64,000 nucleotides of DNA from Lota lota (taxonomy: Eukaryota > Chordata > Actinopteri > Gadiformes > Lotidae), in the NCBI GenBank assembly GCA_026745465.1, contig JACYXH010000479.1, forward strand, positions 231,001 through 295,000, read 5' to 3'. A model generated the notes under the pieces. It had not been told where the DNA came from. It worked only from the letters and a program-made list of their open reading frames with translations, and ran no database searches. Below, piece by piece: positions 1 to 55,385 of the stretch (position 1 is its first letter; each line of letters begins with the position of its first letter). A program made the position numbers and the translations under genes.

Positions 1-6864
<6,864 letters not shown>

Positions 6865-7882: not shown

Positions 7883-20048
<12,166 letters not shown>

Positions 20049-32790: not shown

Positions 32791-34599
32791 TCACATCTGC
32801 AGCGGCGAAAAGGCGTAGAAAGGAAACTGGGCCTCGTCCTCATCCACGAAGAAGCACTGGAAATAGGGCATCTCATCTAGAAGAAGTCATCAAAATGGCA
32901 TTGGTGTAAGTTGTGTTTTGGAAGGGTTAGGGACAGGAAGCGAGAAAACAGCAAGAACATACATTTTCATCAGCACTCCACATTGCCACGTTTTCAAATG
33001 TAAAAGCTATTTCTACATACCTTCCAGTAAATAATTGTCTGTTGAAGAGGGTTCTTCTGTGAAAATGAAAACATATACTGATGATTACAATTAGGAAAAT
33101 AAGGAGTTTTTTTTTGCATCACTAGACTCTGCATGCTTTGGCATCATCCACTGCATAGCTAGGTTCAATATCCAATACCCATTGCTTTCTCTTCTTTTGC
33201 AGTCTTCTTCTCAATTGATTTTCCTGAACAAAAAATAACAATAATAGTTTTTGTGAAGCAATGTGAACCAAGTAGCTAAGTGAACCAAATACCAAATTAG
33301 CAACATACCCTTGGTCACTGTCTCTTGTTTCTCTTTGAGACGTCTTTCCTCTGTAAAATAAACAAAATGAAAATATAAAGTAAGCCTACCATATTCAAGT
33401 AATAACAGTATCTAATGAAGCCAATTAACTGTATCTATTTTATCACAGACTCTATTACATTCTACATACTTTGCAAAAGTTATCTACAAACGTCTGTACC
33501 TCACTTGGTTTTACCTTTTCTTTTGAAAAGCTATAGGCTCTATTATAGAAAAAAATATATATATACACGCATTGCCAAGGCATTTACCTGCACAAGCACA
33601 GCACAGCGCCTGTCAAACTATACTCTACTATCTAGATCTTTGGTGGGCTTTGAGGCAGGTTGAAACTCACACTTTGGTATAGGATATAATTCTGGCCTTG
33701 TTTAAGGTATATTTCTGGTTATGTATGTATATTATTTCTGCCTTCACAAATAATTAGTTGGGTGTGGAAATACATCATAATGCATGTGTGGACAACTTAA
33801 TTACACTGATACATTCAGGGCAAACATTTAATCAAATTGAAATTAGACACATGGTCATGTAAGGCTATGACAAGCAACGGGGTAAGTAGCCTATTGCATG
33901 AACCCCAACGTCTTGGAAGCACAATGCTTTCTTTCTTTGTCCACGGACAGCCACCTGCCCACACATGTTCCTTGCCTGCAGCCTTTCTGCAGAACTAAAC
34001 TACAGCAGAAACAATGTGGTTTCAAATAAACCAAACATAACAAATATTATGCTGAGACAGCTGCTTGTTCACGTTGAGAGAAGTTGTTCATTTGACGGAA
34101 TGCTGAATGCATAGTGGGGAATTTCACATTGGCACAGTGAAGCTCATATCAATGGGGCAATGCCACAATGTATAGCCTTGACCAAACACTGCACACTAAA
34201 AGCCAACTGCTACTGTTCTTGGCCACCATTGGTTTGGCCCTTGGTTTTACAGCTGTTGAAGGTTAACGCCAGTTACTAAAACCAACACATTTTGTGTTCT
34301 CACTAATATCAACTAAACTATGGCTATATTTTGTATCTATTTTATACTGTACAGTGTTGTATTATTGGGAACTGAAACTCTACTGTCAACCTAAAACAAC
34401 CTAACCTTGTTTAGCTGGTTCACCAGGTTGACAAGAAAGAGCCAAGAGATGATATTTCACATGGACAGTAGACTTTTTTTATTTACCTTTCTTTGTAGGC
34501 GGCGCGATAGTCTTCCTTTTCGGCTTTTCGTCCCCTATTTCAATATAACATGTATGTATAATTTATATGTACTATACAACACACACACACATCCACCCC

Positions 34600-34630
<31 letters not shown>

Positions 34631-37600
34631 ATATTGATCATCAACCAACTGAATAAATAAACCACTGGTAGTATAGCAGTACCTGTGATTTTTCTTGCTG
34701 GTGGGGGTATGGCCCTCTTTGGCGCTTCTATGTGATGAGATACAAACACCGAAACTCAGAAATATTAATATATAATTATACCAATAAATCCATTAAAAAT
34801 ATAAACAATAAAAGTGCACATCATGGAATGAAACAGAATGTAATTCAATGTAATGGAATTTAATTTCTCTTTTTTTCACTTTTTCGTTCCTCACAGTTCA
34901 TATCTTTGCGATGATGTTATTATTATAATGGATTATTGGAGAAATTTCCATGATACAGATAACAGCATATCAGTTGCAATCACTATAATTCAGTAAATCG
35001 GTATAGGGTAACTTTTGAATTACTCTGGCACCAATATAGATACAATCCTAATGATAGAATATTAAAATGAAACCATCAAAGCAATACAGGAAGACACCTA
35101 ATTTCATCCAATAACTAAAATCAGATGTTGTTGTTCAAAAGGTTATATCATATCTATCTGTATCATCAAATCATTACTATGATACAAAGGACATACAAAC
35201 AAATACAAATGGTTACACACAAGGACAGTCGAAATTCTATTGAAAGTATGGTCCATGGAAAATATTAAAATACCCAGGAAACCCAATTTACCTTTTTTCA
35301 ATTGCAAAGCCTTCATCCGCTCCTTTGTTAGACTGGCATTTTTGTGCAGAGCTTCAACCTCTGTTAATATAGAAAATCATTTTTTTAAACTTTTTACATT
35401 ATGCAGAGATGTTAGATTTTTCACAAGGAGTTACAAACTGACAAAAACTGTCCAATCAAATGTCTCTCACTTACCTATCTTTGATGGCATTGATTTGAAC
35501 TTTTCCTTTGCAACCCCAGTTTCTAAAACAAGCATATAACACATTTGTCTTGTTTTGAAGTCGACACCTCTGGATATAGCCACTTTAATAATATCCAGTC
35601 ATGCACTCAAATTGTCTAAATAAATTAAGGTTCCATACCTTTCATTGTTGGTGCGCCTTTTCCTTTACACAACATTTCATTTACTTATAATTAAAGTGTA
35701 CAAATATGTATATGACAACTAGATAGTTATTTTCACACACTAACCTTTTGTAGGGATAGCTGATTTGGTCTTTTCTTTCTCTGCTTAAATAAACCATATG
35801 ATAAATCATGAAAAAACATTCTCTTTATAGATTAAATCATCACATCACAAAAAAACATCCATTAATGCATTGCTTTAACTTTATTCAAACGCAATTTTTA
35901 TAAAATGTAGCAAAATTGTATTAATAATTTAAAGGTACAATATGTAACATTGACACTTATGGTTAAAATGGGTACTGCAGTCCAAATTCACAATATTGGA
36001 AAAAGTTATAAAGGTTGAGGACACTGAACGAACATGAGCGTCAGACTAGCCGCGCACAACCTTATATTTAAAGACGAGTGCAATTTTTATATTTTGACAA
36101 TGAGTTTGAATGGATTCTAATCCAGCTCATGTGGCATCTGTCTTGAAATCCTCTGGGCTCCTGGCTGTAGCATCGTTGTCAGAGAAGCCAGTATTTCGAT
36201 TTAGCATGTTTCCTTAATCTCTGATGACATATCATAGTAATTGTATCTTTCATTTAGTACGGTAAAGGTCTTACATAAAGCTCATTTAAAGCAATATAAA
36301 ATCTTACCTTTCTTCAAAGGAGCTGTATTCTCTTTGTGAACTTCAGCATCTAAATATGTAAAATGTTTATACGTCAAAAATGCTTAACAACAGTGCTGCA
36401 TTAAACAATGAAATGTCCAATGTTTGGGCCATTTAAGAATATAATTACCTTTCTTTGTATGAGCAGGTTTGGATTTGTCTTTGGTGAGCTCAGCATCTAA
36501 AAGTAAAATTATATATTTTTAATTCTAACATGAGTACTTCAACCTCTGTGTCTTTATAGAAGAAACAGTACATGGAGTTTTCAAATTAACAGCTAGGAAC
36601 TATTGTATAGCATGTCTGTTGACATGCAATTCAATAGTTACATAGATTGTACAATTACAACTATTTATTCATTATTTTATATCAGTATTTCCTTTTCATA
36701 TGCCATCCCAACCACACCTCCAGCTTCACCAGGTGAGCCTGAAGTTCAGCACCTTACCTTTCTTTGATGGCTTGGCTTTGAGGGCCTCTGGCTCATTGGC
36801 AGTCTCCACTGCTGTGAAACCATGACAGTATTAAGGCATATTAGAAATAAGCTATTGTAGGAATTATACTCAGTTTACAAGGTGAAAATAAGTGAATGTG
36901 AAACTCAGTAGGAAGACAGTAGGGGTGACCTTGAATCGTTGACAATTCGGATCTTCGATAAGAAGACAATGTCATCTTTCAAAGTTGAATTGTGCATGTG
37001 TAACATCGGGACATTAAATTGGGAGGATGGGTGTGCTAAGTGAAAAAAATAAAGTTCTCAAGTTTCGCTGTTCTGCTAAACTGAATGGTGTTATATATGT
37101 GTTACATATATGCTGAAACACATTATTCTCATGTACTACAAATTTTGTAACAGTCAAACTCTTCTACGCATCTCCACAGAGACCGGCCACTGTTTGATTT
37201 CATAGATGTATTATATTACTCACAGTTTTTATATTAGCCTATATTATAGCATATTAGGATATTAGCATATAGTGGCGTATATCTACTTTCAAATTTAACA
37301 CAGATGCTGACATGAACGGACGTGCACATTGTGGACTGATCTTCCCAGTGTCTATATTATAAAGTGGGATTATAAATATACTACCAATACTATATAACAC
37401 GTTAATATATTCTCCAATAAAATACACAAACACTTCTAGCCAATAATACTATTCAATTTAGTTTTAAAAGGGTGTATAGTTTCAGAGCCTCCTTTGCAAG
37501 AGCTTTGCGAACATGCTGACTGAGAATATTTGCTGTAGCTATTTATGATTACTATTTTGAAATCAAATCAGCCTACGGCATTAAGGTACAAGCTGTTAGC

Positions 37601-38198
37601 TGTGTATATTATTTTTAACTTTACCAGTTTTTGTGAGGTTAAGGTGTGACTTTTTAGGGGCAGCAACTGCTTCCTTTGTGTCAGCTTTAACCATCTTGAT
37701 TGTCTTCTTCAGTCCATCTTCTGAAAATTAAAACAACTTTTCATTAGTAACAATGAAAGCTTAAGTAATTTGACGTGATACCATTCCGTTTACAATTATG
37801 TTAATTATTGTAAGTATTCTTTGCGATTTTTGGTTTGCAATTTTTCTTCTACTAGACTTTCTCCAGTTTAGACTTTTTCAGTAATCTATTTGTGCATCTA
37901 ATTAGTTTGCATACCTTTTTTGAGTCCACCAAGAGCTATGTTCTTTCTAGGACGTTCAAATTTTCTCTCTTTCTTCTCATCTTCTTTTGGCATCTCTGCA
38001 CAATAAATTAAATTAAATAAAATCTAAATATTACAACATAAAAAGTACCTAGGTTATAGATCAAAAAGTGAGAAAGTGATTGTGAAGTACCTATTACCCC
38101 ACCTGTTTTTGTAACATTGAGATGCTCCTTTTTAAAAGGAGAAACTCTGGTCTTCCTGTCAACCCGAATCATCTTTGGAGACTTCTTGGGTTCATCGT
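32791..38198 (-). CDS. trdn: trdn 3' cassette of short symmetric exons
   Basis: Exons by high-to-low coordinate: 38198-38103, 37995-37915, 37720-37625, 36811-36758, 36496-36449, 36349-36308, 35783-35745, 35662-35639 (weak acceptor), 35522-35475, 35360-35292, 34727-34683, 34534-34487, 33350-33309, 33223-33179, 33056-33021 and 32876-32791. Each internal exon is a multiple of three (24-96 bp), starts and ends in phase 1, and encodes a Lys/Glu-rich piece often ending ...KK before a GGTA donor (for example EAPKRAIPPPARKIT). The 38198 and 37720 exons (both 96 bp) are paralogous: both end H-L-N-(V/L)-T-K-T. Human TRDN likewise has many short luminal exons used in alternative splicing. Any exon here could be skipped without a frame change. 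Confidence 0.75.
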
Positions 38199-41100
38199 CT
38201 GAATTAAACAGATTGTGACCAGGCCAGATAAGTATAGAGGAATATAAAACATTGTTGAAAGCATTACATGAAAACATGAGAATTGTGCAACAATTCATTG
38301 GCAATTTGTATTCGTAGGATTATGGGTTTTGGAATTTTGGAACATAACAAATGCCTTTTGGTGTTTTTGGTGTGTCATTTGGTCATTTATCCAAAGTGTC
38401 ATGCAACACCACGAGCATTAATTCTTAGCATGGCCGGTGGGCATCGAACCCCTAACCCTGTATGATCCTACAATTTCAGACCTACCTGTCTTAGTGTCTT
38501 GTTTTTTGAGAAGCCCTGGTTTAATTGATTTCTCCTCTGCTTTAGGAATCCTCTTGAGTTGGATTGTAGTCTTAGAGGGCTTTGTAGCTTCTGCCCCCTC
38601 TTTGGTAGGCTTTTCTGCCTCCTTTTTGGAAGGTTTCTTTGGTGTCTTTTCTTCTTTTAGAGCCTCTGTCTCTTCTTTCTTGGAGAGTTGTATTGCTTTT
38701 TCATCGTCCTTTGATCGTTTTTCAGGGGCTTTCTCTTTATCATCTGTTTTCAGGATTTTATCATCTCTTTGTTCATCTTCCTCTTTTGAAAGCTTATTCT
38801 CTTCTGTTTTGGAAGACTTCTTTTGTGCTTTTTTCTTTTGTCCAGATTTGTCACTCAGTTTTGCATCTTAAAAGTAAAAGAACATTAATTAAAAAATAAA
38901 GTTTATTTGTCATAATAGTGGTTCTATAACTATAACTGCATGCATTTTTGTAATTGTGAAGCAGCGAAACGACAAACGAAAAACAAACATTGCATTTATT
39001 AACCAAAAAAATAGTAGTAAAACAATACCTGTTGTTGCATCTTTTTTCTCGTCTTTTGATTGTTTCTGTACTCCATTCTTTTCTCTAGAGGGTTTATTTG
39101 GTTCCCGTTCTTCTTTGGATGGTTCTTTAACTCCTTTAAGTGGTTTTGTAGGTTCTTGTTCTTCTTTAGCTTGTTTCTTCACCTGTTTTTCTTCCTTTAA
39201 AGCCTTCTCTGTTTTAGTTTCCTCTTTAGATGGTGCCTTGGGTTCTTTTGCGTCTTTGGAAGGTTTCTTAACTTCTTTCTCTTCTTTGGGTAGTTTTGTT
39301 TGTTCTAGTTCTTCTTTAGGTTGTTTCTTCACTTGTTTTTCCTCCTTTGAAACCTTCTCTGTTTTTATGCCTTCTTTAGGTGGTTTTGTTGGTTCTTGTT
39401 GTTTAGGTTTCTTCACCTGTTTTACCAACTTTGAAACCCCTGTTTTGATTTCTTCTTTAGGTGGTTTTGTTGGTTCTTGTTCTTTAGGTTGTTTCTTCAC
39501 TTGTTTTTCCTCCTTTGAAACCTTCTCTGTTTTGATTTCTTCTTTAGGTGGTTTTATTGGTTCTTGTTCTTTAGGTTTCTTCACTTGTTTTTCCTCCTTT
39601 GAAACCTTCTCTGTCTTGATTTCTTCTTTAGGTGGTTTTGTTGGTTCTTGTTCTTTAGGTTTCTTCACCTGTTTTACCAACTTTGAAACCCCTGTTTTGA
39701 TTTCTTCTTTAGGTGGTTTTGTTGGTTCTTGTTCTTTAGGTTGTTTCTTCACTTGTTTTTCCTCCTTTGAAACCTTGTCTGTTTTGATTTCTTCTTTAGG
39801 TGGTTTTGTTGGTTCTTTTTCTTTAGGTTTCTTCACTGTTTTTACCTCATTTGAAACCTTCTCTGTTATCGCTTCGTCTTTAGGTGGTTTTATTGGTTCT
39901 TGTTCTTTAGGTTTCTTCACAGTTTTTTCCTCCTTTGAAACCTTCTCTGTCTTGATTTCTTTTTTAGGTGGTTTTGTTTGTTCTTGTTCTTTAGGTTTCT
40001 TCACCTGTTTTACCAACTTTGAAACCCCTGTTTTGATTTCTTCTTTAGGTGGTTTTGTTTGTTCTTGTTCTTTAGGTTGTTTCTTCACTTGTTTTTCCTC
40101 CTTTGAACCTTGTCTGTTTTGATTTCTTCTTTAGGTGGTTTTGTTGGTTCTTTTTCTTTCGGTTTCTTCACTGTTTTTACCTCATTTGAAACCTTCTCTG
40201 TTATCGCTTCGTCTTTAGGTGGTTTTATTGGTTCTTGTTCTTTAGGTTTCTTCACTGTTTTTTCCTCCTTTAAAACCTTCTCTGTCTTGATTTCTTCTTT
40301 AGGTGGTTTTATTGGTTCTTGTTCTTTAGGTTTCTTCACAGTTTTTTCCTCCTTTGAAACCTTCTCTGTCTTGATTTCTTCTTTAGGTGGTTTTGTTGGT
40401 TCTTGTACTTTAGGTTTCTTCACTGTTTTTACCTCATTTGAAACCTTCTCTGTTATCGCTTCATCCTTAGGTGGTTTTATTGGTTCTTGTTCTTTAGGTT
40501 TCTTCACTGTTTTTTCCTCCTTTGAAACCTTCTCTGTCTTGATTTCTTCTTTAGGTGGTTTTATTGGTTCTTGTTCTTTAGGTTTCTTCACAGTTTTTTC
40601 CTCCTTTGAAACCTTCTCTGTCTTGATTTCTTCTTTAGGTGGTTTTATTGGTTCTTGTTCTTTAGGTTTCTTCACTGTTTTTTCCTCCTTTGAAACCTTC
40701 TCTGTTTTGATTTCTTCTTTAGGTGGTTTTATTGGTTCTTGTTCTTTAGGTTTCTTCACTGTTTTTTCCTCCTTTGAAACCTTCTCTGTCTTGATTTCTT
40801 CTTTAGGTGGTTTTATTGGTTCTTGTTCTTTAGGTTTCGTCGCTGTTTTTTCCTCCTTTGAAACCTTCTCTGTTTTGATTTCTTCTTTAGGTGGTTTTAT
40901 TGGTTCTTGTTCTTTAGGTTTCTTCACTGTTTTTTCCTCCTTTGAAACCTTCTCTGTTTTGATTTCTTCTTTAGGTGGTTTTATTGGTTCTTGTTCTTCA
41001 GGTTTCTTCACTGTTTTTTCCTCCTTTGAAACCTTCTCTGTCTTGATTTCTTCTTTAAGTGGTTTTGTTGGTTCTTGTTCTTTAGGTTGTTTCGTCGCTT

Positions 41101-44100
41101 GTTTTTCCTCCTTTGAAACCTTCTCTGATCTAATTTCTAGTTTAGATGATACATTTGATTCTGTTCTTTCTTTGGATGGTATCTTAACGGTTTCCTTTTC
41201 CTTAAGTGGTTTCTTTGCCTCAGGTTCTTTTAGAAGTTTCTTCACTTCTTTATCTTCCTTAGAAGATAGATCTTCTGTTTGTTTTTTAGAAGGCTTTTTT
41301 CGCTTTTTCACTTCATCTTGAGGACGTTTGGTTGGGTCCTTCTTTTCTTTGATTCCCTCACTAATTGTTTCTTTTTCCTCTACTGTGATTTTGGGCGATT
41401 CCTTTACATCATTGGAGGGTTTGGTTTTGACTTCAGATGATTTCTTTATTTCTTTTTCTTTTGAAGATTTTTCCATATGTTCCTCTTCCTTACAAAGTAC
41501 TTTCGCTTCCTTGGACTGGTTTCTTACTTTCTCTTTTACATGTTTCTTTGGTTCCTTTTGTTCTTTTAACAGTTTCTTTGGTTCTTCTGTAGAGTGTTTC
41601 TTTAGGTCTTTCTGCACGTTAGAGGATACAGTTACATTTTCCTCTTTGGAAGTTACCCTTCTTAGCACTATCTTTCTAAAGAGCTTTTGTACTTTCTCCT
41701 CAGAAAGTGTACCTAACTGCTTCCCTGCTTTAGCGGGTTTCTTCGTGAACTTTTCTTTCTTTGAAAGAATCTCTAGTTCTTTTTCGTTTCCATAGAGTTC
41801 GTTTGCTTCCTTGGCACCTTTAGATGGTTTAGTTTCAGCCTCAGGTTTCTTTAGCCCCTTCAGTTTTTTAGGTGTCTCATCTTCAGGAGTTGTCTTTTGT
41901 TCTTTGACTTCCTTAGGTGGTTTCTTGACTTTTTCTTTCTTTGAGTGCTTAGTTTGTTCTTTCTCCTCTTCAGAGGATTTTTGAGGTGGCACCTTTGCAT
42001 CTTTCAATGGTTTGGTTTCTGCTTCATGCTTCTCTTCCTTGGGAGGAATAACTTCCCATTTTTTGTCTTTAAAATGCTTCTTCACTACCTTCTCTTTAGT
42101 TGTTTTCTGTTGTTTTGGCTCTTCTTTTAACAGTTTATTTGGTTCTCTCTCTTTGGAAGATCTTGTTGTGTTATCCTCCTTAGAAGACACAAGCACTTTC
42201 ATTTCTTTGGAAGGCTTTTTCCCTTCTAGTATCTTTTCCTGGTCAGCAGTCTTCTTTGAAACCTTATCATTTTTAGAGGTTCTTATTGATTTCTCATCAT
42301 TTTTCGATAGTTGTTTCACCTCTTCTCTTGTCTTTGAAGGCTTCTTTGGTTCTTTCTCTACTTCAAGGGGTTTCTGTGAATATTTTTTATCTTTTGCTGG
42401 TTTATCAACTTTGTCCTTTTCCATAGATAGATATTTAGGTTCAGGTCTCTTCATTTCTTTAGAAGGCTTCTCTTCATCCTTGTCTTTTTGAGATGGTTCC
42501 CTCACTAATTCCTCAACTTTTGAATGTTTCTTTGGTTTGGTCTCTTTGGGTTTCTTAATTTCTGGCTCTTCTGTCGAAACCTTTTGTGGTTCCTTTGCTT
42601 CTTTGGGTTGTTTCATCACTTTGTCCTCTGCTTTTGATGGTTTAATCTTTATCTGTTCTACTTTAGAAGCCTTTTTCACCTTTACTTCCTTTGAAGACTT
42701 ATTTGGTTCTTTCTCCTTTTTGGAGGGTGTATCTGGTTTCTTAGCTTTGTCGCCTTCCTCAGTCAGACTTTTTGGTTTAGTTTCTTCCTTTGAAGGTTTC
42801 TTCATTTCTTTTTTTACCTCACCAGAGAGCTTTTGTGGTTCCTTCTCATGTTTAGATGGTTTCTCAGCCTCTTTCTCATCTTTAGATGTTATTTTTGGTT
42901 CTTGTTTTTTAGGTTGTTTCTTGGCATGTTTTTCCACTTTTGAAACTTCTGATTTAATTTTTTCTTTAGATGGTGCCTTTGATTCCCTTACTTTTTTGGA
43001 TGGTTTCTTTAATGTTTCCTTTTCCTTAAGTGGTTTCTTTGCCTCAGGTTTTTTTAGAAGTGTCTTCCCCTCTTTATCTTCCTTAAGAAGAAGAGCCTGT
43101 TCTGTTTGTTCTTTAGAAGGCTTCTTTTGTTTTTTCACTTCCTCTTCTTGAGTAAGTTCCTTCAGTTCCTTGATTAATTTCTTTGTTTCTTTTTCCTCTA
43201 CTGTGAGTTTGGGCGATTGCATTGCCTCCTTGGAAGGTTTAGTTTTTGGTTCAGATGATTTATTTATTTCCTTTTCCTTTGAAGGTTTTTCCATATGTTC
43301 CTCTTCCTTATATAGTACTTTTTCTTCCATGGAAGGCTCTCTTACTTTCTTTTTTTCAGGAAGTTTCTTTGGTTCTTCTTTAGAGTGTCTCTTAAGGTAT
43401 TTCTGCTCCTTAGAGGATACAGTTACATTTTCCATTTTGGAAGTTACATTTAGTACCTCTATCTTAGATAGGTTTTTTAGTTTTTCCTCAGAATGTTTCC
43501 CAGACTGCTTCTCTGCTTTAGAGGGTTTCTTCACATCATTTTCTTTCTTCTCTGGTCCTTTGTTCTTTCCAGATAGTTTCTTTGCTTCCTTGCCACCTCT
43601 AGATGGTTTGGTTTCTACTTGAGGTTTCCTAATTCCCTTCTGTTCTTTAGGGAGTTTTATAACTGTCTCGGTCACAGGAGTTTTCTTTGAGTCCTTGACC
43701 TCCTTGACTTCTTTTTCTTTCTTCGAGTGCCCAGTTTGTTCTTTCTCCTCTTTGGAGGATTTTGGTGGCGGCACCTTTGCATCTTTTGATGGTTTGGTTT
43801 CTACTTCCCATTTCTTTATCTCATTCTCTTCAGAGGGCTTTTCCACCTCTTCCTTGGAAGGCACAGTTTCCTCTTTTTTGTCTTTCGAAGGCTTCTTCAC
43901 TTCCAGAACTTTTCCCCTTTCAGAAATCTTCTCTGAAACCTCTTCTTTTTTAGAGGGTTTCTTAATTTCCCTTTCTTCTTTCAATGGTTTTATTGATTTC
44001 TTAACTTTTTTAGATTTGACCCATTTTTTTGAAGGCTTTTTTGGTTCTTTCTCTTCCTCAAGTGGTTTCTGTGAATCTATTATATCTTTGGCTCGCTTTT

Positions 44101-47100
44101 CAACTTGGTCCATTTCCTCAGATGGAGATTTTGGTTCAGGTCTCTTCATTTCAGTCTTTTCTTTAGGAGGCCTTTTTTCATCCTTCTCTTTTTGAGATGG
44201 TTCCTTCACTTCTTCTTTAACCTGCAAATGTTTCTTTGGTTTGGTGTCTTTTGGTTTCTTTATTTCTGTATCTCCTGAGGCCACCTTTTGAAGTCCCTTT
44301 ACTTCTTTGGGTTGTTTCTTCACTTCCTCTTCCTTGGATGGTTTTATTTGCACCCTTTCTACTTTAGAAGACTTAGTCACATTTTCTTCCTTTGAAGACT
44401 TCTTTGGGTCTTTCCCCTTTTTGGAGGGTTTGTCTGTTTTTTTAGCTTTGTCACCTTCCTCAGTCAAAGTCTTTGGTTTAGTTATTTCACTTGAAGGTTT
44501 CTTAATGTATTTTTCTTCATCAGAAAGCTTTTGTGGTTCCTTCTCATGTTTTGTTGGTTTCTCAGCTTCTTTTTCTAGCTTTGCAGGTTTCTTCAGTTCA
44601 ATTTCTTCCCCAGAGGGCTTCTGTGGTTTCTTCACACCCTTTGATTGTTTCTTAACGTTTTCCTTTTCCTTAGACAGTGCCTTTGGTTCCGTTTTACCTT
44701 TAGATGTGATGTTAGATTTAGATGGTTCTTTCACCTTGGTTCTTTGTTCCTTCATTTGTTTACTTTCTTCTTTAGAATGTTTCATTATTTCTTCATCTTT
44801 TTTGGATGGTGTTTGTGGTTCCTCAGCTTCTTTGGATGGTTTCTTCACCTTCTTCTCTTCCGTGGAAAGCTTTTGTTTAGATGGTTCCCTTAACCTTTTT
44901 AGCTCATTGGAAAGTGTTGTTTTTTCTTCTTTTACTTCTAAATGTGGACATCAACAGTGGAATTACTCATTACTCATCACTCTATTTTATCCCCACATCT
45001 TATAACACATTTAGCATTTTATATTGCATTGATAGTGTTGCCTATAATATAGTGAAATCATGACCTAACTTATTACTATGATGGAATGTCATATCTTTTT
45101 CCTCCCACAATTATTCATTTTGTGAGTACTCTTATACAAATACATGGCTGTTGTTTTATACCTGTTGGTGGTCGACCCTCATTTTTCTCTTAAGAGTATT
45201 TTGACTGAGATAGTTTTTATGCCTATGCATATTTGTAATTAATGGTTTTGGAAGGGTTTTAATGATGAACATATTTAGCAGCTACTTCAATGTTTAAACA
45301 AGGCCAAAAATACCAAAAAGCTATACCTACTAATAATAACAGGTTGGTAATTTAAAAACATGATTCAAACCGGTATTTTCCCTTTTATGGTGATCCGTCA
45401 CCCACAAACCACCTATTTGCTTTGTGATAACTGGAAGTAGACCTACTCTCATACTCAATGCTGGATTAGTACCCCCAGTGGCCCCTGAGCCCTGAAGCTT
45501 ATAGTCATAGTCCCCCCCCTCCCCTCCAGTACTTGCATGACGAGTACTCGTCATGCAAATCCCAGATGATTACAAAAATTTGTAATTGAAAATCGTTTTG
45601 CCTTTTTTCAAACATCGTACCAGTACATTTTATATTGTGTTGAGATGTATTTTGTGTTGGAGCAGGACATATGGTTAAATAGTGAATAGCCTTCATGTTA
45701 TTGTTGAGAGGCTGTATAAAATAGGTTCGTTCGGCAACGTTTAGTAGCAATGTTACTTAACAATAGTTTTACAATATTGACGATTGACTGCTGAGAACGC
45801 CTCGACATCAAAACTGAAAATGAAGTTTAGCGCTGCTGTGGTGATTTATTAAAAAACACATCTCAGTAGCAGCTGATGCAGATTAATTTTTTCTTATTTT
45901 TTTTACTATTGTTTGGTCAATATGTCTACATGATCTGCGAATTACAAAGAACCCTGACTTAACTAAAATGCAGTTCAACTAGATACGTCACATTTAAAGA
46001 TGTGGATGGATATTAAATCAAAATTGCTGCATAAAATATGTATCCTGCTAGCTCTACAACAGTAAAAAGCAGGTCAAAACTGCGTGACCAGCCGAGCTCT
46101 GGTGTTGTTTAAACGCACATGGACTGAAGAAAATATAGAATATAACTGACTTTTGGTATGTGTAAATTAGTGGGAACTATCACGGACATAAATTTTTTTA
46201 AAGGGCCTACTAAACGAGTACTCAAGTATTTGCTAAGACTTAGACCATGTCTATTCGATGAGAGTTTTGGAATGTTTTTGGAAAACCTAACAATTATCAC
46301 AAGCTTGAAATTATGCATTCAGGCCAGCCCTAATGTGAACACCTATAGCTACTGTGATTAAAACAGATTTTGCAGTAGATAATAATTGCACAATTGATTA
46401 GTTGCATAGGTTAATTTAAAAGGCACAATAATAGTAAGAATGCTTGAGTTGGCTCTAAAATACTCCCATTAGAAAGCTTCCATGCATGTTACTTTGAGAA
46501 ATGCATCCAGCTCAGCTGTAAACATAACATAATTTTATAAATATGCTATAAGTCCTCATCACAATAACGTTTGCAGTTTTAAATGTAATCTAACCCTAAA
46601 AAAAAAGATGTGTCATTGCCACCATAATTTCTTCAAACAAATGGCAATAAAAATGTGAACATTATCAAGTGCAAAACTTATCTTAAAGATTATAGTATTT
46701 AAAGAATACATATTGGCCAGGTTCCAGTTAACTGACTGTTGTTGAAATGCAGAGCAATATCTTTGAATATTATTTAAGGGATGGCCAATATTCTTGTCAT
46801 ATATACACAACATGCCCACTGTTTGCATACAAACATAATGCATATGAACTTGATGAAAATACAAGATGAGACATGGGATGGTGATGGTGTGTATACCTTT
46901 CTTGTGCTGAGCGTCCTGTCTGCCTTTGTTCTTGAGGCTTAAGTCTTGTTTTTTGAACATGGCCATAAATCCCACTCTTCTGGCCTTATCAAAACCAACG
47001 TGAACCTTCTTCCTTCTCCTTGGTTCCGCTTTCATGCTTTCACTGCTATTGTTGTTGTTCTCGTCGTCGTCGGTTATGTCATCTTGGTCAGAGAATGGTG

Positions 47101-50100
47101 AGGAAGTTGAGATCTTTTCCACATCTTCATTGTTTACTTCAGACACTGCATCAAAACCACCAGGCTGTTCTGCGTTCAGGATTTCAAGATGGAGATGTTC
47201 AACAAACATTTTATCTTCTTCCTCCTTTTGATCATCCTCTCTGCATTCCTCCCCCTCTTCTGTAATGACATCTTCATCAATGATGTAGTCTCCTTCCACC
47301 TGTTGCTTTTGTTCAACAGGAACAATCTTTTCAACATATTGATCTTGATCAGTTTTTACATTTTCATCTCTCATGGCAATGTCATCTGCCTCTTCATCCT
47401 CAGCAAGGCCTTTGTCGGTATGAAATTCTTCAGTTTCACCTGTCTTGGTCTCTTTTTCATCAAGAGAAGGAATGAAGGTTGCCTCCTCTGGCTCCTGATC
47501 TTCCTCATCTCCTCCTTCCTCATTAATGTCTTCTAAAGTCAGATGCGTAGCCTTCCCTTCTTCACTGAGGTTTACTTTATCATCATCTAGATCCTCATTT
47601 GTGTCTCTATCTTCAACAGCCTCGTGATCTTCAAAATCTAACTCAAGATCCTCATCTTTCTCCACCATCACCTCATCCTCTAAGACCTCCTCCTCTGTCT
47701 TGAGGTCCTCCAGTTCAAATTTTTCTGATTGGATCACCTCCTCTAATTCAAGCTCCTCTCCTTCCTCCTCCTCCTCTAATTTGTCAAATGTTGATGCATC
47801 TTCCTCTTCAAATACATCCTCCTTCTCCTCCTCTAGGAGATCATCCTCTTTCTCCCTCTCCTCCTCCTCTTTAAGGTCCTCATCTGTCTGTATCACGTCT
47901 TCCTCTAAGAGTTTCTCATCGTCCTCCCTGCCATCATCATTTAAGAGATCCTCCTCTTTATCAAACTCCTCCTCTAAGAGATCCTCCTTATTCTCCCATT
48001 CCTCATCTAAGTGAACCTCCTCCTTCTCCTCTTCCTCTAAGATAACCTCCTCATTTTCCTCCTGATCTAGGAAATCATCCACTTCCTCTCTGTCCTCCTG
48101 CTCTAGGACCACCTCCTCTTCCTCTGTGTCCTGCTCTAGGAGATCCTCCTCTAAAATAACCTCCTCTTTCTCCTCCTCCAGGAGATCCTCTTCCTCCCTG
48201 GCCTCCTCATCTAGTAGATCATCCTCTTCCTCATCTAATGCATTCTTCTCTAATTTGATCCCCTCTATTTTGTTTGCATCTGCCTCTTTTTTCAGTTCTC
48301 CTATCTCATCTTCCACACTCTCAGTCTGCTTCTCCTCATCGTAATCCACTTCCTCTTCCCCCCTGGCCTCCTCCTCCTCCTCCATATCCGTCTCATCATC
48401 ATCTGCTTCCTCTTGCTCTGTCATCTCCTCGGTTTTGACATGTTCCTCAGCCGCATCTTCAAAAAGCCGGATTTCATTTAGTGTCTCCTCTTTCTCCTCC
48501 TCTGTTGCATTATCTCCTTCCTCTTCCTTCTCCTCGGCTTCTAGGGCCTGCACCTCTTCCTCTTGGTCCTCTTGGCTGAGCTCTTCAAAGGTTGGCTCTT
48601 TTTCTGTCCGTTTTTCGGCTTGGTCAGTTATCTTTGAAGAAGAGACAGCATCCCTTGTGGCACCCCGCATCATCTCTGTAACTGTATTATGAAACTATTG
48701 GGTCTTTGTTTACTACCCCATACAATTTGGGTTTTTAACAAAGAGGTGTTTAATCTAAGCATGTTTTACAACAGGGAATTATGGCGTGAAATGACAAATG
48801 AGATGACAAGTAAACTTTGTAATTGATATGCTGTATGATGGTTTTCATAAACATGGCGTGTGCTTTCATGCAAAGATAAAATCAAACATTCCATGGAAAA
48901 CAAACGTTAATACAGACTATTTACATATTTCAGTTAAGATTATTGACAGGAAGAAGTCACCAATGCAGAAGAAGACAATATGACACTATACCAAAACAAA
49001 TGTGCAATCGGAAAGATTTCCCATTAAAGATACGTTTCATGCTTAGTACTCAAACATTTGAACATTTGAAAAATTCAACACATAAACAAACTTTACTGCA
49101 TCAAGACATTTATTTTGGTGAACGTATTACAATAACATATTGGACCATGCATGGATTTGTTTAATTTTGTTTTTGAATGGTCAGCATTCAAACTGTGGGC
49201 TTGTCTCACATTAAACACATCACAAGTGACACCTGACACTAATGTAATTTAGAAATAAATGCATGAACATGCATGAAATGTGACATTAAAGGTTTAACGT
49301 GTAATATTATTAGTGATAGTAATAGAAGATAAATAAATAAATGATAGAAATAGAAGCAAAGCAGGAATAAACATTGGCATTACTTTCCACCGCTTGAGAC
49401 AGCTCTTGGCTAGTAAACAAATTAAATGTGATGCTGAACTCTAAACGTTTCATCTAGCCTATCTATCTATCTATCAAGTAAACACCTGTTAATGCTTATG
49501 CTGGCTATGAGCAATAGCTTATAGAAGAAGCTAATTGTATAACGTAACTGACAGTGTTAATATGTTTGCTGAGTTAGCTGTTTGTTAGCAAACCATACAC
49601 GTTGCACATTTAATAATTTGCAGATTTTGTTAATTTGACAGTTAAAGCAGTCAGGATATACTTATCCCCATCAACCAATATCAGCAATATCAAAATGCTA
49701 CAATACCAAAATAATCAATAAGACATTTTATTTTATTGCATTACATACTGTTGAATTAGACTTACCTTTTTCAGAAGTTGGGAAAATTTCACCTGAATAT
49801 CAGAAAAATATAGTTTAATTTGAATTGTATGTCATACATTTCCAATGCATCGTCACCACAATGCATTTAAGACCACCAAAAAAATCAATACTAACCTTTT
49901 TTCCTCACTAAATATATGTCAGACGATGATTCAACTAGTTCATCTAAACAAATATATGGAAACAAAACATGAGATATGGAACTATTCTCAATAAACAATT
50001 TAAAATGTTTAAGGATCGTCTTTATGTATCAAAATCCACATACCTTTTTCAGTTACAACCAGCGGTGTTGCTACAAGTTCACCTTTAAAAGCAACATACA

Positions 50101-51884
50101 GAACATAAAAAATCTGTACACAGATACACATCTGAACACTTTTGTGAGGCATGATTGTTGTATATGATATTTTTGGTTGACATAGTACCTTGATCACCAG
50201 TGATCATGCTTGACATATAACCCAAGAACAGCTCTTTCTTGTCTGTCATTTCCATCAAAGCATCTGTGACCACTTGCATGGGATCAACTGTCACCTCAGG
50301 AAGGATTCCTAAAAAATGCCAATAACACGATACCAATATGTAATTCAAGTAGATGTGTCTAAGAGTACAAAAGGATATAAACATTTCAATATTTCTAAGT
50401 GGTAGTAATCTCCATCATGACGTAGATAAAGTGAATCACTACCCATTGCAAGTTAATACTGTTGCTAGCTTCAGGATTGCTCACTAATAGAGTGTACCGT
50501 TAAAAGAGCCATTCAATTAAAACAATGCCTTTAAGGGTGCCTTAGGGTGTCGAATGGTATCATTATCATGATATAGATAAATAAAATAAAAATGACTAAA
50601 GTACTTGCATTATTTTGTTAGATTTCCCTGTCTGCTACATTGATATACTGTTAGTGTTAGTTCCAGTTAAATACCTTGTTCACCCATTAGCAGGTTGGAA
50701 AAGTAGGCCACAAGCATCTTCACCTCTTCAGTGATGATCTCCTTTATTCTGCTTAGAACCTCCATCGGACTAATTCCCATGGCCTCCTGGATACCTGATC
50801 CATGAATAATGTATTGATACAACATAGTTATTATATTGGGTCATTTCAGTCAGTTTCCTTGTTAGTATGTTATATCATGTGTAAGATGAGTGGAGTTTGA
50901 GTTGAATTGGATTCACAATACCACTTTTTCAATATTGAGATTGTACCCTTTTTTTCCATCAGACATCAAACTCTTTCATGTCAAAAACAGAAAACCCAAA
51001 CTTTTTTACTTTTCTGACATATTTGATGTTATGTTGTAACGTTCAATCTGTACTCATGAGGTAATTAGGCATGCATACAACACTTTTTATACAGAGAGAT
51101 TAGGGGGAATGTTAAACCAGAGTATAGATACCTTTGGCGGTTTCCAACACTGTGTCCAAAACAGTGCACAGCATGTCCTGAATGTAACCTACTAATCCGT
51201 CTACAAAGTCAATAGTAACACTGAAGACATCCCTGCCCACCACCACAGGGTCAATAAAGCTAATGTCAGTGGTTCCTATTGGAGGAACAGAAACAGTTAG
51301 TCCCATGCTCACCTTAGTTATGTTGTTAAACATATGAACACCTCTAACATACACACAACATATTGGTCTACAGCCTTGAATTAAGATTTTTCACACTACA
51401 TTGTAGTGTGAAAAAATGTATACGGTCCATGCCGAAAGTGAACGATCGGTAATCTAGAAATATTAATATTAGCCTAATTATTAATGGGGTCGTAAATGTT
51501 AACATTCAACTTGATTAACTTGTGACATGATTTTACATTTAGAAGAATAAGAAGTTACCTTTTGTCATGTCCAGTATGCTATCAAGGAAATCACACAGTC
51601 CATCCTGGGCATAACTCACTACTCCACTTATAGATTTGTCGGCAACATGGAAGAAATCCCTGATTATGACCACAGGGTCCATGAAGCTAAGGTCTGTGGC
51701 TCCTGAGAAATATAAAACAAACATACTAAGACCATTAAAAAAGGCTATTATTAATTATGATTATCTACACATGATTATGGCCACAGTACAGACATCAATA
51801 GCCATTACATATAAACTAAAACGCCATTGATCAGAAAGTTATTTCGAGATATTTGGATGATATATGTTATCATATTATGTGAAC

Positions 51885-51931
<47 letters not shown>

Positions 51932-54900
51932 TCTTTAAAGTAAATGTCCATGGCCAAATGGTCAAAAGTCCCGTTGACCTGTTAAGTATTAAGTAATAAC
52001 TAATTATGATTATCAAGAGTTTACATTAGATATTATCAAAATGCTAGGACAGTAAGTATCCAATAAATACCTTTCCCTACATCCAGAATAGTGTCCACCA
52101 TAGAGCAGAGCATATCCTGTATGTAGCTAAGCACGCCATTCATTAGGTCATTGGAAGCGACGAAGGCGCCTCTGCCAACGACCACAGGGTCAATGGTGCT
52201 AAGGTCAGTTTTTCCTATGAGGATAAAATAACATAAAAGAAAATGTTATTTGATTAAAAGAAAATGAATAAAGTATGAATTAGGTTTTCTGTTAAGGACC
52301 AGTGAGGTTCAATATGAGCATGCTTTTACTTATTTCCGTTTAGACTACTGTAACTCACTGTATTCCTGTGTCACTCAATACATCCTCCCCAAACTTCAAC
52401 TACTTCTAAATGCTGCAGCAAGACTACTCACAGAATCCAATAGAAGAGTCTAGATAGCGCCTATTTTAGCATCTCTACATTGGTTACCTGTACGTTTTAG
52501 TATTGATTTCAAAAGGTTAATGATCACTTTTGAAGCACGTTTGGGGTTGGCCCCAGATTGTGTCACAATATACTAACTCCTTGCAAACTTGAATGCAACC
52601 TGAGATCCTCCAACAGAGGTCTGTTAGTAATTCCTAGGTCAAGGCTAAAAACCAGCCTTGACCTCTAGAAGTGGTTATTCTTCCATTTTTATTTTACTTG
52701 CTTTATTGTGTTTTAATAATTCATACATCACTTTTCATTATTACTGTATCAATTCAACTTCTTTTAATCTGGTAATTTTTCTTGTTTGCATGTCTTTGAA
52801 AAGCACTTTGTAACTTGTTTTTGAAAAGTGCTACGTAAATTATTAAGTAAATAAATAAAATGTTACATAAAAAGTTAGTTATGTGTATTATTTCATCGAT
52901 CACAAATATTTATTGTAAAATATGGCAATGACGGCAAACTCAAGGTATATAATATAATAAAAAATGTAATTATAATAATTAAACATGAATGATATTAACC
53001 AGTATCTAGTGGAAATGTTGTGGAGTTCTGTTTTTAGCTTATGAAGCTAAAAACGTAAGTTGTAGTAAATACCTGCATTGATGTTGGATATAGTGTCTAG
53101 TATGAAATCCAACAGCGTACAGAACAAGTCCTTAAAGCAGCATATATGTTCACGTAGGAAATCATTCACAGAATGAAAGAAGCTTCGTCCAATGATCACC
53201 GGGTCAACGTAGCTCAGGTAGAAGTTTCCTGTAAGTGTGAAATTACTTACTTATATAGTCACATCGGTGTAATAGATAAGACCTGCAGACCTATTGTCTC
53301 CTACGTGGCTACCGCTCACACTAGGCTACTATATAACAATATAAATTACTGATATTATTACTGTTGCTATTACTGTAGCTTTTACTAGAAGGCTATTTAT
53401 GTTATGGAGTGGCTTGTCATACCATCTTTATCAGAAAACTGTTGAACGACTGCATCCTTGACTTCTGCTATTTCTTCCGTTGCATAATTTGCTATCGACA
53501 TTGGGTCACTTAAATCAGGTGAACACTCTGGAGCCGAAAAAGAAGAAAGAAAACAAATTAGTAAAATCATCATGTAGATTCAGGATTTCTATTTGAAACA
53601 TATGTACCTTGAACTTTATAGAGGAGGCTTGAAACTTCATCGACGGCATTGTTAACAGATTGTATGGGATTCAGGATAATCTCCTGTATGTCTGAGAGCA
53701 CAAGCACAAATGTATATGCTGACTGAAATGCTGGTTTGGCACATATGAGACAGAAGGCACTTTAGAGAGAGAGAGAGAGAGAGACCAAGCAACAATGACA
53801 GCAAAAAGGAGAGTTTGACTCACCAGGAACAGCCTGATGTTCTACAAAGTCAAACATCACGACACCCACGACCCCCCAGGAGATGAGGGCCACAAGAGCC
53901 ACCACCAGCTCCACAGAGACCCTCAGCCTTCCCAGCAGACCCAGACCATTGGGCCGGACAGAGGCTGCAGGAGGGGCCAGAGCTCCCGGACCCCTGGCTG
54001 CAGAGAGAGACAGACGTTTTTCCCCTTTTACCTTGACTGAAGGAGCGACTGACTTTACTGACCCACCCAAGTGTGCTATGCTTTTACGTTTTCAATATTA
54101 GCAATACTGGAATATAATATCCCAATACTAACTGGTGTTTAACCTACAGTGCTTATCCTAAAGCACAAAGCTGTTTCAATGTTTATACCACTGCAGGTAC
54201 AATTGCTTTATCAACACCAACTAACTAGCTTCTAAGTAGCCTAATTAAATTTTGAATCTATATGTATGTCCTGAAAGGAATGATTTTATGTATCAAAACA
54301 TTCAGCTATACAATGTAGTTCAAATTTGTATTTTAATTTGGCAAGTATCATTATTGCATTGTTTATTTTATTGATCAGATCTCACACGAATAGCAACAAT
54401 CTCGTCAATATGCTCAACAGAATATATCCAAAAACCAGTTGCATAATAATTGCAATAATTGTATACCTATACCTAATTGTTGACCTATAATGTCAGATAC
54501 CTTAATACATTATTTGTTGTGGGTTCTCTGACATCAAGTAGCCTACAGCTGTTACAAACATTAGGTCAGATTAATGTTAAACGTCAATGTTAAACATAAA
54601 AATAAATAAAAAATAAATTGTAATTATGATCATGGTGATTCAGAATAAGTGAAGAGAGTCTTGTAATTTTGCTTTTAGCAGATAATCAAATTAGCCAATC
54701 CCCATTTCACTTCAAATAGATTTGTTAAAAAAGAAGCACACGTGTGTTTCCACTGATGAAGCGCATTGGAAAAGGCTGGTCATAGCACTTTATTGCGTCC
54801 TTGCGCTCGTCAATATACACTCATTACCAGTGTGACGGTGTCAAGTTTGTTTCTCAAATAGAACTGGGGCCAAGGTGTCCTGTGACACTTTCCAACACAA

Positions 54901-55385
54901 ATACACTCAGCAAGCTGGTCCATCCAGTTAATTTCCTCAAACAAATACGTACTGATGTTGCTCTAACCGCGAGATATTACATGTTTTATAAAAATATAAA
55001 TAAAATGAAAGTGGCCTACAGGGCAGACAAATTCATCACAAAGGGTGTTTTTTTCATTAGCTTGCGATTAAAAAAATATTCAAGACATCTGATCTATAAG
55101 AAGCATATCATAAGTGAAAAAGGAAAGACAAGTTAAGGCAAAGTAAGATAAATAAGTGGTAAAAAGTGAAAAGTCCAAGGAGTAACGATGTTTCAAGAGA
55201 ACACAGCTAAGACGTTGGCTACATGATATGCTGTATTTATAGCAACCAACTTTCAGAGCTTTTTCAAAGTAGGAGTACCTTGTACAAACAGTAGCCTATC
55301 ACAGGGATTTAGTCATTACTTGTAATGTTGTTTTCACCCCTGTTAACTTCACATAGACAGGTGTGCATGCCCTACCTTCAGCCAT
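32791..55385 (-). CDS. trdn: Triadin (giant form), at least 30 coding exons, - strand
   Basis: Triadin is a single-pass protein of the junctional sarcoplasmic reticulum that links the ryanodine receptor to calsequestrin through luminal charged (KEKE) stretches. Exon 1 (55385-55376) gives M-A-E. Exon 2 (53997-53824) gives a short cytosolic part and one membrane helix (VELVVALVALISWGVVGVVM), followed by FDFVEH, close to the triadin FDLVDY. Further exons: 53691-53608, 53527-53423, 53228-53073, 52214-52071, 51702-51559, 51275-51132, 50794-50675, 50308-50189, 50082-50044, 49943-49896, 49792-49766, 48675-46897, 44937-39029, 38866-38486, 38198-38103, 37995-37915, 37720-37625, about a dozen short exons, and the last exon 32876-32791. 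That exon ends with YFQCFFVDEDEAQFPFYAF, matching the conserved triadin C-terminus. All internal junctions are phase 1. The sum is about 3,400 aa against 729 in human, if the one-base frame break near 40107 is set aside. Confidence 0.88.
34592..34632. repeat. Poly-C run flanked by CA repeats
   Basis: CACACACACATCCA followed by about 21 C and a second CA run, in a trdn intron between exons 34727 and 34534. Confidence 0.9.
38370..38456 (-). mobile_element. Short SINE fragment, - orientation
   Basis: TTATCCAAAGTGTCATGCAA and GGGCATCGAACCCCTAACCC correspond to the tail and B-box of the SINE family found in usp40 introns. It lies just after the donor of the trdn 38486 exon. Confidence 0.45.
38486..38866 (-). 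CDS. trdn: trdn exon of 127 codons, Lys/Glu-rich
   Basis: Bounded by TTTTAAG acceptor and CAGGTAGG donor, phase 1 at both ends. It encodes alternating Lys and Glu/Asp residues (KKEETEALKEEKTPKKPSKK) that continue the pattern of the giant exon just upstream. Confidence 0.8.
39029..44937 (-). CDS. trdn: trdn giant exon: about 1970 codons of Lys/Glu/Pro/Ser KEKE repeats
   Basis: A single exon of 5909 bp, from an AAATGTAGA-type AG acceptor after 44938 to the donor CAACAGGTATTG at 39029. It starts EVKEEKTTLSNELKRLREP and is dominated by K-P-S-K-E-E words of about 7-12 residues. Composition is overwhelmingly Lys, Glu, Pro, Ser and Thr, with no membrane segment. Triadin KEKE regions bind calsequestrin, so this exon would greatly multiply such sites. 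A one-base deficit near 40107 splits the open frame: the upstream 1587 codons end in a short out-of-frame tail, and the downstream frame reopens at once. With that one base counted, the length becomes 5910, a multiple of three, in agreement with the phase-1 flanks. Long open frames on the + strand here are by-products of the composition. Confidence 0.85.
39300..41105 (-). repeat. 84-bp coding minisatellite (about 22 units) in the trdn giant exon
   Basis: The unit is 28 codons containing KPPKEEIKTEKVSKEEK followed by a (Q/T)VKKPKEQEP(I/T) segment. The marker AGGTTTCTTCACTG recurs every 84 bp, for example at 40496, 40580, 40664, 40748, 40832, 40916 and 41000. Variant units (KTGVSKLV, DEAITEKVSNEV, KKQPKEQEP) recur in the same order in different parts of the array, which shows block duplications of several units. 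Confidence 0.92.
41110..44580 (-). repeat. Tandem duplication of about 1.75 kb inside the trdn giant exon
   Basis: The stretch from about 44580 to 42880 is repeated from about 42880 to 41110. Shared landmarks appear in the same order: KHEKEPQKLS, KPK(T/S)LTEEGDKAKK, KRPEPK, VPP(P/Q)KSS, ENVTVSS, EEHMEK(P/S)SKEKEI, EAKKPLKEKET. The offset is about 1700 bp at one end and about 1830 bp at the other, reflecting small indels. Confidence 0.85.
44938..46896. other. trdn intron between acidic and KEKE exons
   Basis: AT-rich DNA with no recognised exon, gene or repeat. An inverted word (GCATGACGAGTACTCGTCATGC) sits at 45535-45556 as a short perfect palindrome. Confidence 0.5.
46897..48675 (-). CDS. 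trdn: trdn acidic exon: 593 codons of Glu/Asp-rich sequence
   Basis: The exon runs from the TTACAG acceptor (48676) to the AAGAAAGGTATAC donor. It starts EMMRGATRDAVSSSKITDQ and is then almost wholly Glu, Asp, Leu and Val, with runs such as EEEDLLEEEKEEVILEEDLL. It closes with a basic segment (RRRKKVHVGFDKARR). Human triadin has only a short acidic stretch at this place, just after the membrane-proximal luminal part. Low-affinity calcium binding is possible but not shown. Length 1779 bp, a multiple of three, phase 1 at both ends. Confidence 0.8.
49766..50082 (-). CDS. trdn: Three short trdn exons before the acidic exon
   Basis: Exons 50082-50044 (GELVATPLVVTEK), 49943-49896 (DELVESSSDIYLVRKK) and 49792-49766 (GEIFPTSEK). 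Each is phase 1 at both ends with GT/AG borders and ends ...(E)K or KK. Confidence 0.7.
50189..53691 (-). CDS. trdn: trdn membrane-proximal luminal exons: eight related DP-motif repeats
   Basis: Eight consecutive exons encode related segments built around a (D/N/S)P(V/M/I) motif followed by a helix-like stretch: 53691-53608 (LNPIQSVNNAVDEV), 53527-53423 (LSDPMSIANYATEE), 53228-53073 (VDPVIIGRSFFHSVNDF), 52214-52071 (IDPVVVGRGAF), 51702-51559 (MDPVVIIRDFF), 51275-51132 (IDPVVVGRDVF), 50794-50675 (ISPMEVLSRIKEI) and 50308-50189 (VDPMQVVTDALMEM). The three middle exons are each exactly 144 bp and contain a (M/G)LC motif; the 156-bp exon has three Cys. Human triadin has one such segment (SDPLKLVRDAMEE), so this looks like exon multiplication. 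Confidence 0.82.
51887..51929. repeat. (TG)n microsatellite
   Basis: A TG run of about 43 bp in a trdn intron. Confidence 0.95.
52290..52862 (+). mobile_element. 3' fragment of an L2/CR1-group LINE, + orientation
   Basis: Conceptual translation, with stops, gives the C-terminal end of a fish LINE reverse transcriptase. Recognisable pieces are DYCNSLYS, LLLNAAARLLTES, ASLHWLPVRFSIDFK and EARLGLAPDC. A tail like AAGCACTTTGTAACTTG...AAAAGTGCTACGTAAAT follows. It is truncated, lies antisense in a trdn intron, and contains no intact protein. Confidence 0.75.
53824..53997 (-). CDS. trdn: trdn exon 2: cytosolic segment and membrane helix
   Basis: The acceptor is a CTCTCTCTGCAG tract and the donor CCTGGTGAG. 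It encodes ARGPGALAPPAAS..., then RLRVSVELVVALVALISWGV and VGVVMFDFVEH. The helix covers roughly residues 32-52, and the W-x-x-V-x-V-x-x-F-D pattern is shared by triadin and junctin/ASPH. The short N-terminus faces the cytosol in triadin. Confidence 0.85.
55376..55385 (-). CDS. trdn: trdn exon 1 coding part (start codon)
   Basis: ATGGCTGAAG followed by GTAGGG donor on the - strand. It contributes M-A-E plus one base, which joins exon 2 in phase (E then A-R-G-P). Such a tiny first coding part ending in phase 1 is consistent with the uniform phase-1 structure of the gene. Assigned from frame and splice logic, without homology. Confidence 0.6.

Follow-up and report, generated by a model that had tools for sequence, protein, structure and literature searches.

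A putative divergent paralogue of triadin, of about 3,400 codons, in the genome of Lota lota

The window analysed in this study is a 64,000-nucleotide stretch of the Lota lota genome (assembly GCA_026745465.1, contig JACYXH010000479.1, positions 231,001 to 295,000 of the forward strand), and its minus strand carries a gene, here called the window gene, for which a hand-built model gives 32 exons running from 55385 to 32791, with a summed coding sequence of 10,280 nt, or approximately 3,426 codons. An original prediction made from the sequence had described a triadin several times larger than the known vertebrate form, and the ends of the gene (55385 and 32791), its two very large exons (48675-46897 and 44937-39029), its N-terminal anchor and its C-terminal FQC...QFPF block were all located where that prediction had placed them. 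In this study, we describe the structure of the window gene and compare it with two triadin (TRDN) copies located elsewhere in the same genome. Exon ends were placed by hand at GT-AG sites in phase 1-1, and small exons may have been missed; because the ends were chosen at such sites, the GT-AG boundaries and the phase 1-1 pattern of the model are partly so by construction. Only exon 15 has a length that is not divisible by three.

All exons lie on the minus strand. Exon 1 (55376..55385), encoding MAE and a split codon, was placed from the original prediction and the phase, and its start codon is presumptive. Exon 2 (53824..53997) encodes a cytosolic stub and a single transmembrane anchor (LVVALVALISWGVVGVVMF); the anchor has a top 19-residue hydropathy of 2.69 and is the sole region above 1.6 in the read-through of 3,423 amino acids (aa), and the predicted topology is that of a single-pass membrane protein with a short cytosolic stub. 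Repeated DP exons (53691-50189), which are an addition to the features of the original prediction, follow the anchor. These are short modules in exons 3 and 4 (53691-53608 and 53527-53423, with NP in exon 3), four long modules of 48-52 aa with a common cysteine in exons 5 to 8 (53228-53073, 52214-52071, 51702-51559 and 51275-51132), and the modules of exons 9 and 10 (50794-50675 and 50308-50189, with SP in exon 9), exon 10 closely resembling the one DP exon present in ordinary triadin. A membrane-proximal DP exon after the anchor, as in the triadin family, is thereby present. The short linkers of exons 11 to 13 (50082-50044, 49943-49896 and 49792-49766, the last encoding GEIFPTSEK) lead to exon 14 (46897..48675), an acidic mega-exon of 592 whole codons with 43% aspartate plus glutamate and a net charge of -191, and to exon 15 (39029..44937), a mega-exon of 5,909 nt (~1,970 codons) rich in lysine, glutamate and proline (K/E/P). 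These are followed by sixteen luminal exons (exons 16 to 31, 33021..38866) measuring between 24 and 381 nt, K/E-rich overall and totalling 397 aa with a net charge of +41, and then by exon 32 (32791..32876), which encodes the C-terminal DEMPYFQCFFVDEDEAQFPFYAFSPLQM and the stop codon. No Pfam family passed its cut-off in a search with exons 1-13, with exon 14 or with the initial 1,603 codons of exon 15. The PDB sequence search with exons 1-13 returned a single match (E 0.31), which was treated as chance. Across the whole window, 13 MEF2 sites were counted against 9 expected, a difference that we regard as uninformative.

Exon 15 behaves as coding sequence. Read in one frame, exon 14 contained no stop codon against 33.6 expected, and the two open parts of exon 15 contained none against 81.7 and 14.2; in 1000 first-order Markov sequences of the same composition, none was open for exon 14 or for either part of exon 15. 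Plus-strand open reading frames (ORFs) opposite exon 15, of up to 409 aa, were interpreted as reflections of the purine-rich coding strand. When a 399-aa segment of exon 15 was used as query, with scoring of 104 among 315 candidates, only exon 15 and its own internal copy were obtained at E <= 1e-5. This internal duplication (41052..44582, minus strand), revealed by blastn, consists of two copies of ~1.7 kb (44582-42879 and 42883-41052) whose blastn pieces are 77.5% and 81.5% identical. In the DNA alignment of the two copies all 16 internal gaps were multiples of three and all 1,653 aligned columns shared the same codon phase, and the copies contained no stops, whereas random redistribution of the same substitutions produced a mean of 14.9 and a minimum of 5 (1000 trials). 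Exon 15 has thus kept its frame and avoided stops, and therefore would be translated at least sometimes. This bears on the possibility that the mega-exons are mostly skipped, the working protein being a short triadin of anchor, DP modules and small exons. As phase 1-1 runs throughout the model, the deletion in exon 15 described below aside, each internal exon could be skipped in frame, and mammalian triadins are given as splice isoforms of differing luminal length in PMC8471218; with the frame kept and stops avoided over the ~1.7-kb duplication, predominant skipping was considered unlikely.

The relatives of the window gene were sought in the same genome, whose contigs are designated here C1, C249, C212, C752 and so on, C479 being the window contig; human TRDN, ASPH and CLVS2 sequences were also used in the comparisons. 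When exons 1-13 or the last exons served as queries, searches of the genome listed the window locus only and also missed the relatives on C1 and C249. The TRDN copies surfaced only in a profile search with PF05279, which gave six matches, five of them over the cut-off; against a cut-off of 23 bits, the anchor exons scored 23.4 on C1, 28.3 on C249 and 55.1 on C212. One TRDN anchor exon is located at C249:9.705 Mb, adjoining NKAIN2 (C249:9.641-9.693 Mb), and the other at C1:1.218 Mb, ~39 kb from CLVS2 (C1:1.166-1.179 Mb, located with the human query). The human linkage order is CLVS2-TRDN-NKAIN2, and the two loci were identified as TRDN copies because they adjoin CLVS2 and NKAIN2 as in that order; they probably stem from the teleost genome duplication. 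On C212, two PF05279 matches near a CLVS-like gene (~1.00 Mb) are ASPH-like. A PF05279 match of the DADGDGDFD type at C752:871,750-871,821 apparently marks a second ASPH-like gene besides the one on C212. NKAIN matches over the cut-off were found on C249, C135, C175 and C319, and CLVS matches were listed at E <= 1e-6 on C1, C212, C50 and C627; the CLVS2-TRDN-NKAIN2 neighbourhood was not found for the window gene, no NKAIN or CLVS match being listed on C479.

Comparison of individual exons placed the window gene in the triadin family at some distance from TRDN. Its anchor exon scored 57-63 against TRDN of C1, C249 and human, a level reached by none of 500 shuffles in each case, and 49 and 52 against ASPH of C212 and human (again 0/500), so that the margin of TRDN over ASPH is small. 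Exon 32 scored 58 against the last exon of the C1 copy (0/1000 shuffles) and 38 against human (2/1000), and matched the 40-kb C1 locus by tblastn at E = 1.1e-4, while GEIFPTSEK of exon 13 matches by position the GEFLPSRSK of C1 at four of nine residues. The likeness to triadin would accordingly be carried by the rest of the gene, namely exons 3, 10, 13 and the last exon compared with C1. Judged by these alignments, the window gene represents an additional, divergent paralogue of triadin and not the TRDN orthologue, because its anchor scores below the level at which TRDN and ASPH match each other. The contrary view, that it is the ordinary TRDN orthologue of this fish, enlarged in the lineage, would explain the triadin-like anchor, the K/E lumen and the FQC tail; it is already contradicted by the copies on C1 and C249, whose anchor exons are far closer to human TRDN (168 and 185, the window gene reaching 63), and we regard it as barely tenable. 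Thus, of the enlarged triadin originally proposed, the kinship and the very large K/E-rich lumen were retained, and the notion of the lineage's own TRDN grown larger was abandoned, since the genome also holds TRDN on C1 and C249 and the window gene is more divergent. As the searches of the genome missed C1 and C249, a 'third' triadin gene here means that at least three were found, and there may be further relatives beyond these.

The TRDN copy on C1 (C1:~1,218,350 to ~1,190,500, minus strand) was modelled using an exon chain based on splice sites and composition and trained on the window's own exons, which on the 18 window exons 14-31 recovers 16 exactly (in-sample, with the ends of exons 15 and 17 wrong). 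The resulting rough model, without the anchor and last exon, comprises 1,058 aa in 18 exons and includes one DP exon, an acidic exon of 692 aa and small exons. The two genes share, in the same order, the anchor, a DP exon, a nine-residue exon, an acidic mega-exon, small exons and the FQC exon; they differ in that the C1 copy has one DP exon and no K/E mega-exon was found in it, against eight DP exons and a 5.9-kb K/E exon in the window gene. According to this rough model, both genes have an acidic giant exon, and what was found in the window gene but not in C1 is the K/E giant exon together with the set of eight DP exons. Because C1 TRDN has an equally large acidic exon in the same place, that exon is no peculiarity of the window gene, and of the two large exons presented originally as a novelty only the K/E exon remains so. 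An acidic exon of ~692 aa in an ordinary TRDN (C1:1,208,477-1,206,402, rough model) is itself far longer than the short acidic stretch of human triadin.

The second TRDN copy, beside NKAIN2 (C249:9,705,149-9,830,000), has anchor and DP exons and no convincing K/E tail within ~125 kb. Over that distance downstream of the anchor the exon chain yielded the DP exon, its nine other candidates being weak and not accepted, and looser scans, reaching up to 9.83 Mb, turned up nothing beyond short candidates and simple repeats, the latter consisting of runs of arginine/glutamate and a poly-glutamate stretch near 9.827 Mb. Since the scans yielded little besides the DP exon, this copy may be a short triadin.

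The DP modules of the window gene were compared with one another and with ordinary triadin by shuffling. All six pairwise comparisons among exons 5 to 8 stood above all 500 shuffles, identifying four clear copies of one module with a common cysteine; their ratio of nonsynonymous to synonymous differences (pN/pS) is 0.37-0.54, at synonymous differences (pS) of 0.60-0.82, near saturation. Exon 9 matched exon 10 (0/500) and the C1 DP exon (4/500), and exon 10 matched the C1 DP exon and human triadin (0/500 each). Exons 3 and 4, compared with exons 5 to 8, were mostly not significant and are tied to the set mainly through C1 (0/500 and 2/500, respectively) and human triadin. Against human, exons 3, 6, 8 and 10 gave 0/500 and exons 4, 7 and 9 gave 3, 6 and 12 of 500; exon 5 was not significant against either human (85/500) or C1 (161/500), and exon 8 against C1 gave 70/500. 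On this evidence the eight modules probably all arose by copying of the single membrane-proximal exon that ordinary triadin has. AlphaFold, given six of the window exons, modelled exon 8 as one helix over residues 9-46 (mean predicted local distance difference test score 77, predicted template-modelling score 0.41). The hydrophobic moment exceeded that of shuffles in five of the six window modules tested, exons 5 to 10 (at most 17/1000 as high in the five), and in the C1 exon, exon 10 being the module that did not stand above them (212/1000). Such amphipathic helices would run near the membrane, and could lie on it or pair together.

In the luminal part, the two open parts of exon 15 have net charges of +142 and +35. 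KEKE runs, counted by the definition in PMC3427183, number 41 in the lumen of the predicted protein; 30 of them start in exon 15, one of these across its two-frame join. The KEKE region of triadin is described as binding the acidic calsequestrin tail and a luminal loop of RyR1 (PMC8080761), and triadin as anchoring calsequestrin (PMC8880904). An alternative is that the luminal part is chiefly a calcium buffer, as thought for calsequestrin tails or the histidine-rich calcium-binding protein, and not a calsequestrin tether. The acidic exon, with its 592 codons rich in aspartate and glutamate and its counterpart in C1, would suit such a role, whereas the larger addition, which is unique to the window gene, is basic and would suit acidic partners rather than Ca2+; we consider a predominantly buffering role distinctly unlikely.

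Taken as a whole, we lean, at slightly better than even confidence, towards a divergent triadin paralogue that exists beside two TRDN copies and serves as a long, multivalent luminal tether for calsequestrin. If expressed and spliced as modelled, the product would be a protein of the junctional sarcoplasmic reticulum with a cytosolic stub of ~33 residues, one anchor and ~3,360 luminal residues in four zones. The first zone would consist of the eight DP-type modules, probably amphipathic helices of the kind modelled for one of them, and the second, strongly acidic (-191), could hold Ca2+ at low affinity. The third, basic and K/E/P-rich and partly built of 28-residue repeats, could bind the acidic tails of calsequestrin at many points, and the fourth would be the run of small exons that closes with the FQC block of triadin. 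Such a basic chain of ~1,970 residues is, by analogy with the KEKE region of triadin, plausible as a multivalent tether; being long and flexible, it would gather calsequestrin near the release channel and reach deeper into the terminal cisterna than ordinary triadin. The end-to-end distance would be ~65 nm for 3,362 unstructured residues and 25 nm for 660, by a scaling law that takes no account of charge and Ca2+, both of which would alter the two figures. Triadin is regarded as holding calsequestrin in place next to the release channel, and with a relative several times longer, in a genome with two ordinary copies, the effect of tether length on calcium release can be tested directly. Work in fish on 'trdn' may cover only part of the gene set.

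Several observations weigh against this interpretation, including that limitation of the scaling law. With regard to paralogy, the window anchor exon gave no PF05279 match at E <= 10 and none was listed on C479, and by score alone it is farther from TRDN (57-63) than ASPH is from TRDN (77-88). For these two reasons the gene could descend from the ancestor of TRDN and ASPH before their split. The DP exon of C249, compared with the window modules, gave at best 19/500 shuffles. With regard to the tether, KEKE runs in exon 15 number 29 against a shuffled mean of 34.8, and over its first 1,250 aa the count of 13 falls short of the 22.7 given by shuffles; a KEKE enrichment beyond composition was thus rejected for exon 15, and the number of runs is an effect of composition because its shuffles give as many or more. 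Only the tandem part of the exon hints at order in its KEKE runs (16 against 11.8, with 14/300 shuffles as high). PMC3427183 attributes RyR1 binding to specific residues and not to the KEKE definition, and calls binding of CSQ1 possible only. The many more calsequestrin sites attributed to the protein originally are something we would still infer rather than count, because KEKE runs are numerous yet no more so than the composition of exon 15 gives.

Selection on the residues of exon 15 also appeared weak. The ratio of nonsynonymous to synonymous substitution rates (dN/dS) between its halves was 0.47 in a protein-guided alignment (552 codons, bootstrap 0.35-0.60) and 0.59 in the DNA alignment (543 codons), the latter weakly below a position-blind null (mean 0.74, 35/1000 as low). 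With dN/dS near the null, no stops and gaps in frame, the residues appear loosely held and the frame firmly kept, as expected for a disordered charged chain. The exon contains an 84-bp tandem array (39323..41145, minus strand) of 21.7 copies of a 28-aa K/E/P unit, in which 20 of 21 unit spacings are divisible by three. Between 19 of the units there were 15 synonymous and 78 nonsynonymous codon differences, which at face value means no constraint; residue selection within the units was not used as evidence because some units are one codon out of register.

The remaining spacing of the array is a unit of 83 nt, between anchors at 40109 and 40026, in which a one-base deletion (TTT to TT, 40105..40109, ~40107, minus strand) shifts the frame. 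The assembled frame of exon 15 is thus broken once and meets its first stop at 40087, by which point the whole model has run for 2,648 codons; the ~3,400 residues originally predicted agree with the summed model of ~3,426 codons and not with the assembled frame, exon 15 not being one frame. Past the deletion a different frame stays open through 359 codons, as far as the exon end, and the lengths of later exons are still divisible by three. Because of this open downstream frame and the phase kept by the remaining exons, the deletion was read as an assembly error or a recent change. Were it real and the gene decaying, the protein would end at 2,648 residues and lack both the final K/E part and the FQC block; the frame break in the assembly speaks for this. 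It is, however, the sole frame defect in a 32-exon model, beyond it the frame stays open and exons 16-32 keep their lengths and phase, and it involves one T lost from a run of three in a near-identical 84-bp array, where assembly errors would be expected. Decay of the gene was accordingly judged very unlikely.

The preferred reading, of a divergent paralogue acting as a tether, can be extended to a more speculative proposal, which we hold to be possible and rather doubtful. Vertebrates would have had, and some fish would keep, a third triadin gene apart from the TRDN and ASPH loci, with the helix exon present eight times and a K/E exon of ~2,000 codons, whose chain could span the whole terminal cisterna, making it a scaffold for calsequestrin rather than a membrane pin.

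The rest of the window contains other features. On the plus strand, exons with laminin-G and EPTP domains lie at 1890-6660, presumably of a TSPEAR-like gene, and exons of another gene lie at 13424-19300, three pieces of which gave no Pfam match over the cut-off; the latter may be ubiquitin-protease-like. An ORF of 164 aa on the minus strand (61672-62166) had no Pfam match at E <= 0.1, and may be a remnant of a long interspersed nuclear element (LINE) endonuclease. Perfect dinucleotide repeats of 65 to 96 units are located at 235-376, 4605-4796, 17154-17328 and 17515-17644.

With regard to known systems, none of the titles and abstract openings listed in literature searches on triadin describes a giant or third fish triadin. 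As a lead, zebrafish si:ch211-266g18.10 may be the orthologue of the window gene. The zebrafish gene is catalogued under sarcoplasmic reticulum in PMC9748118. Zebrafish trdn has been knocked down, and is reported in PMC8471218 to be ~30% conserved with human and to have three isoforms. A triadin-like isoform X1 of Sparidentex hasta (PMC10864312) and a triadin-like isoform X4 of Gymnocypris eckloni (PMC7694923), each a single row, without sequence, in a table of a fish transcriptome, resemble the window gene in annotation name. ASPH/junctin has an anchor related to that of the window gene, and differs in that the C212 gene matches both parts of PF05279, none being listed for C479. The skeletal triadin Trisk 95 is distinguished by the CLVS2-TRDN-NKAIN2 synteny, absent at the window, and by PF05279, which the window anchor fails to match; human triadin is not known to have a K/E mega-exon. 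Human triadin has 729 aa and one DP exon, compared with ~3,426 codons and eight DP exons in the window gene, and Trisk 95 shares with it the N-terminal anchor, the membrane-proximal DP exon, the K/E lumen and the FQC...(Q)FPF end.

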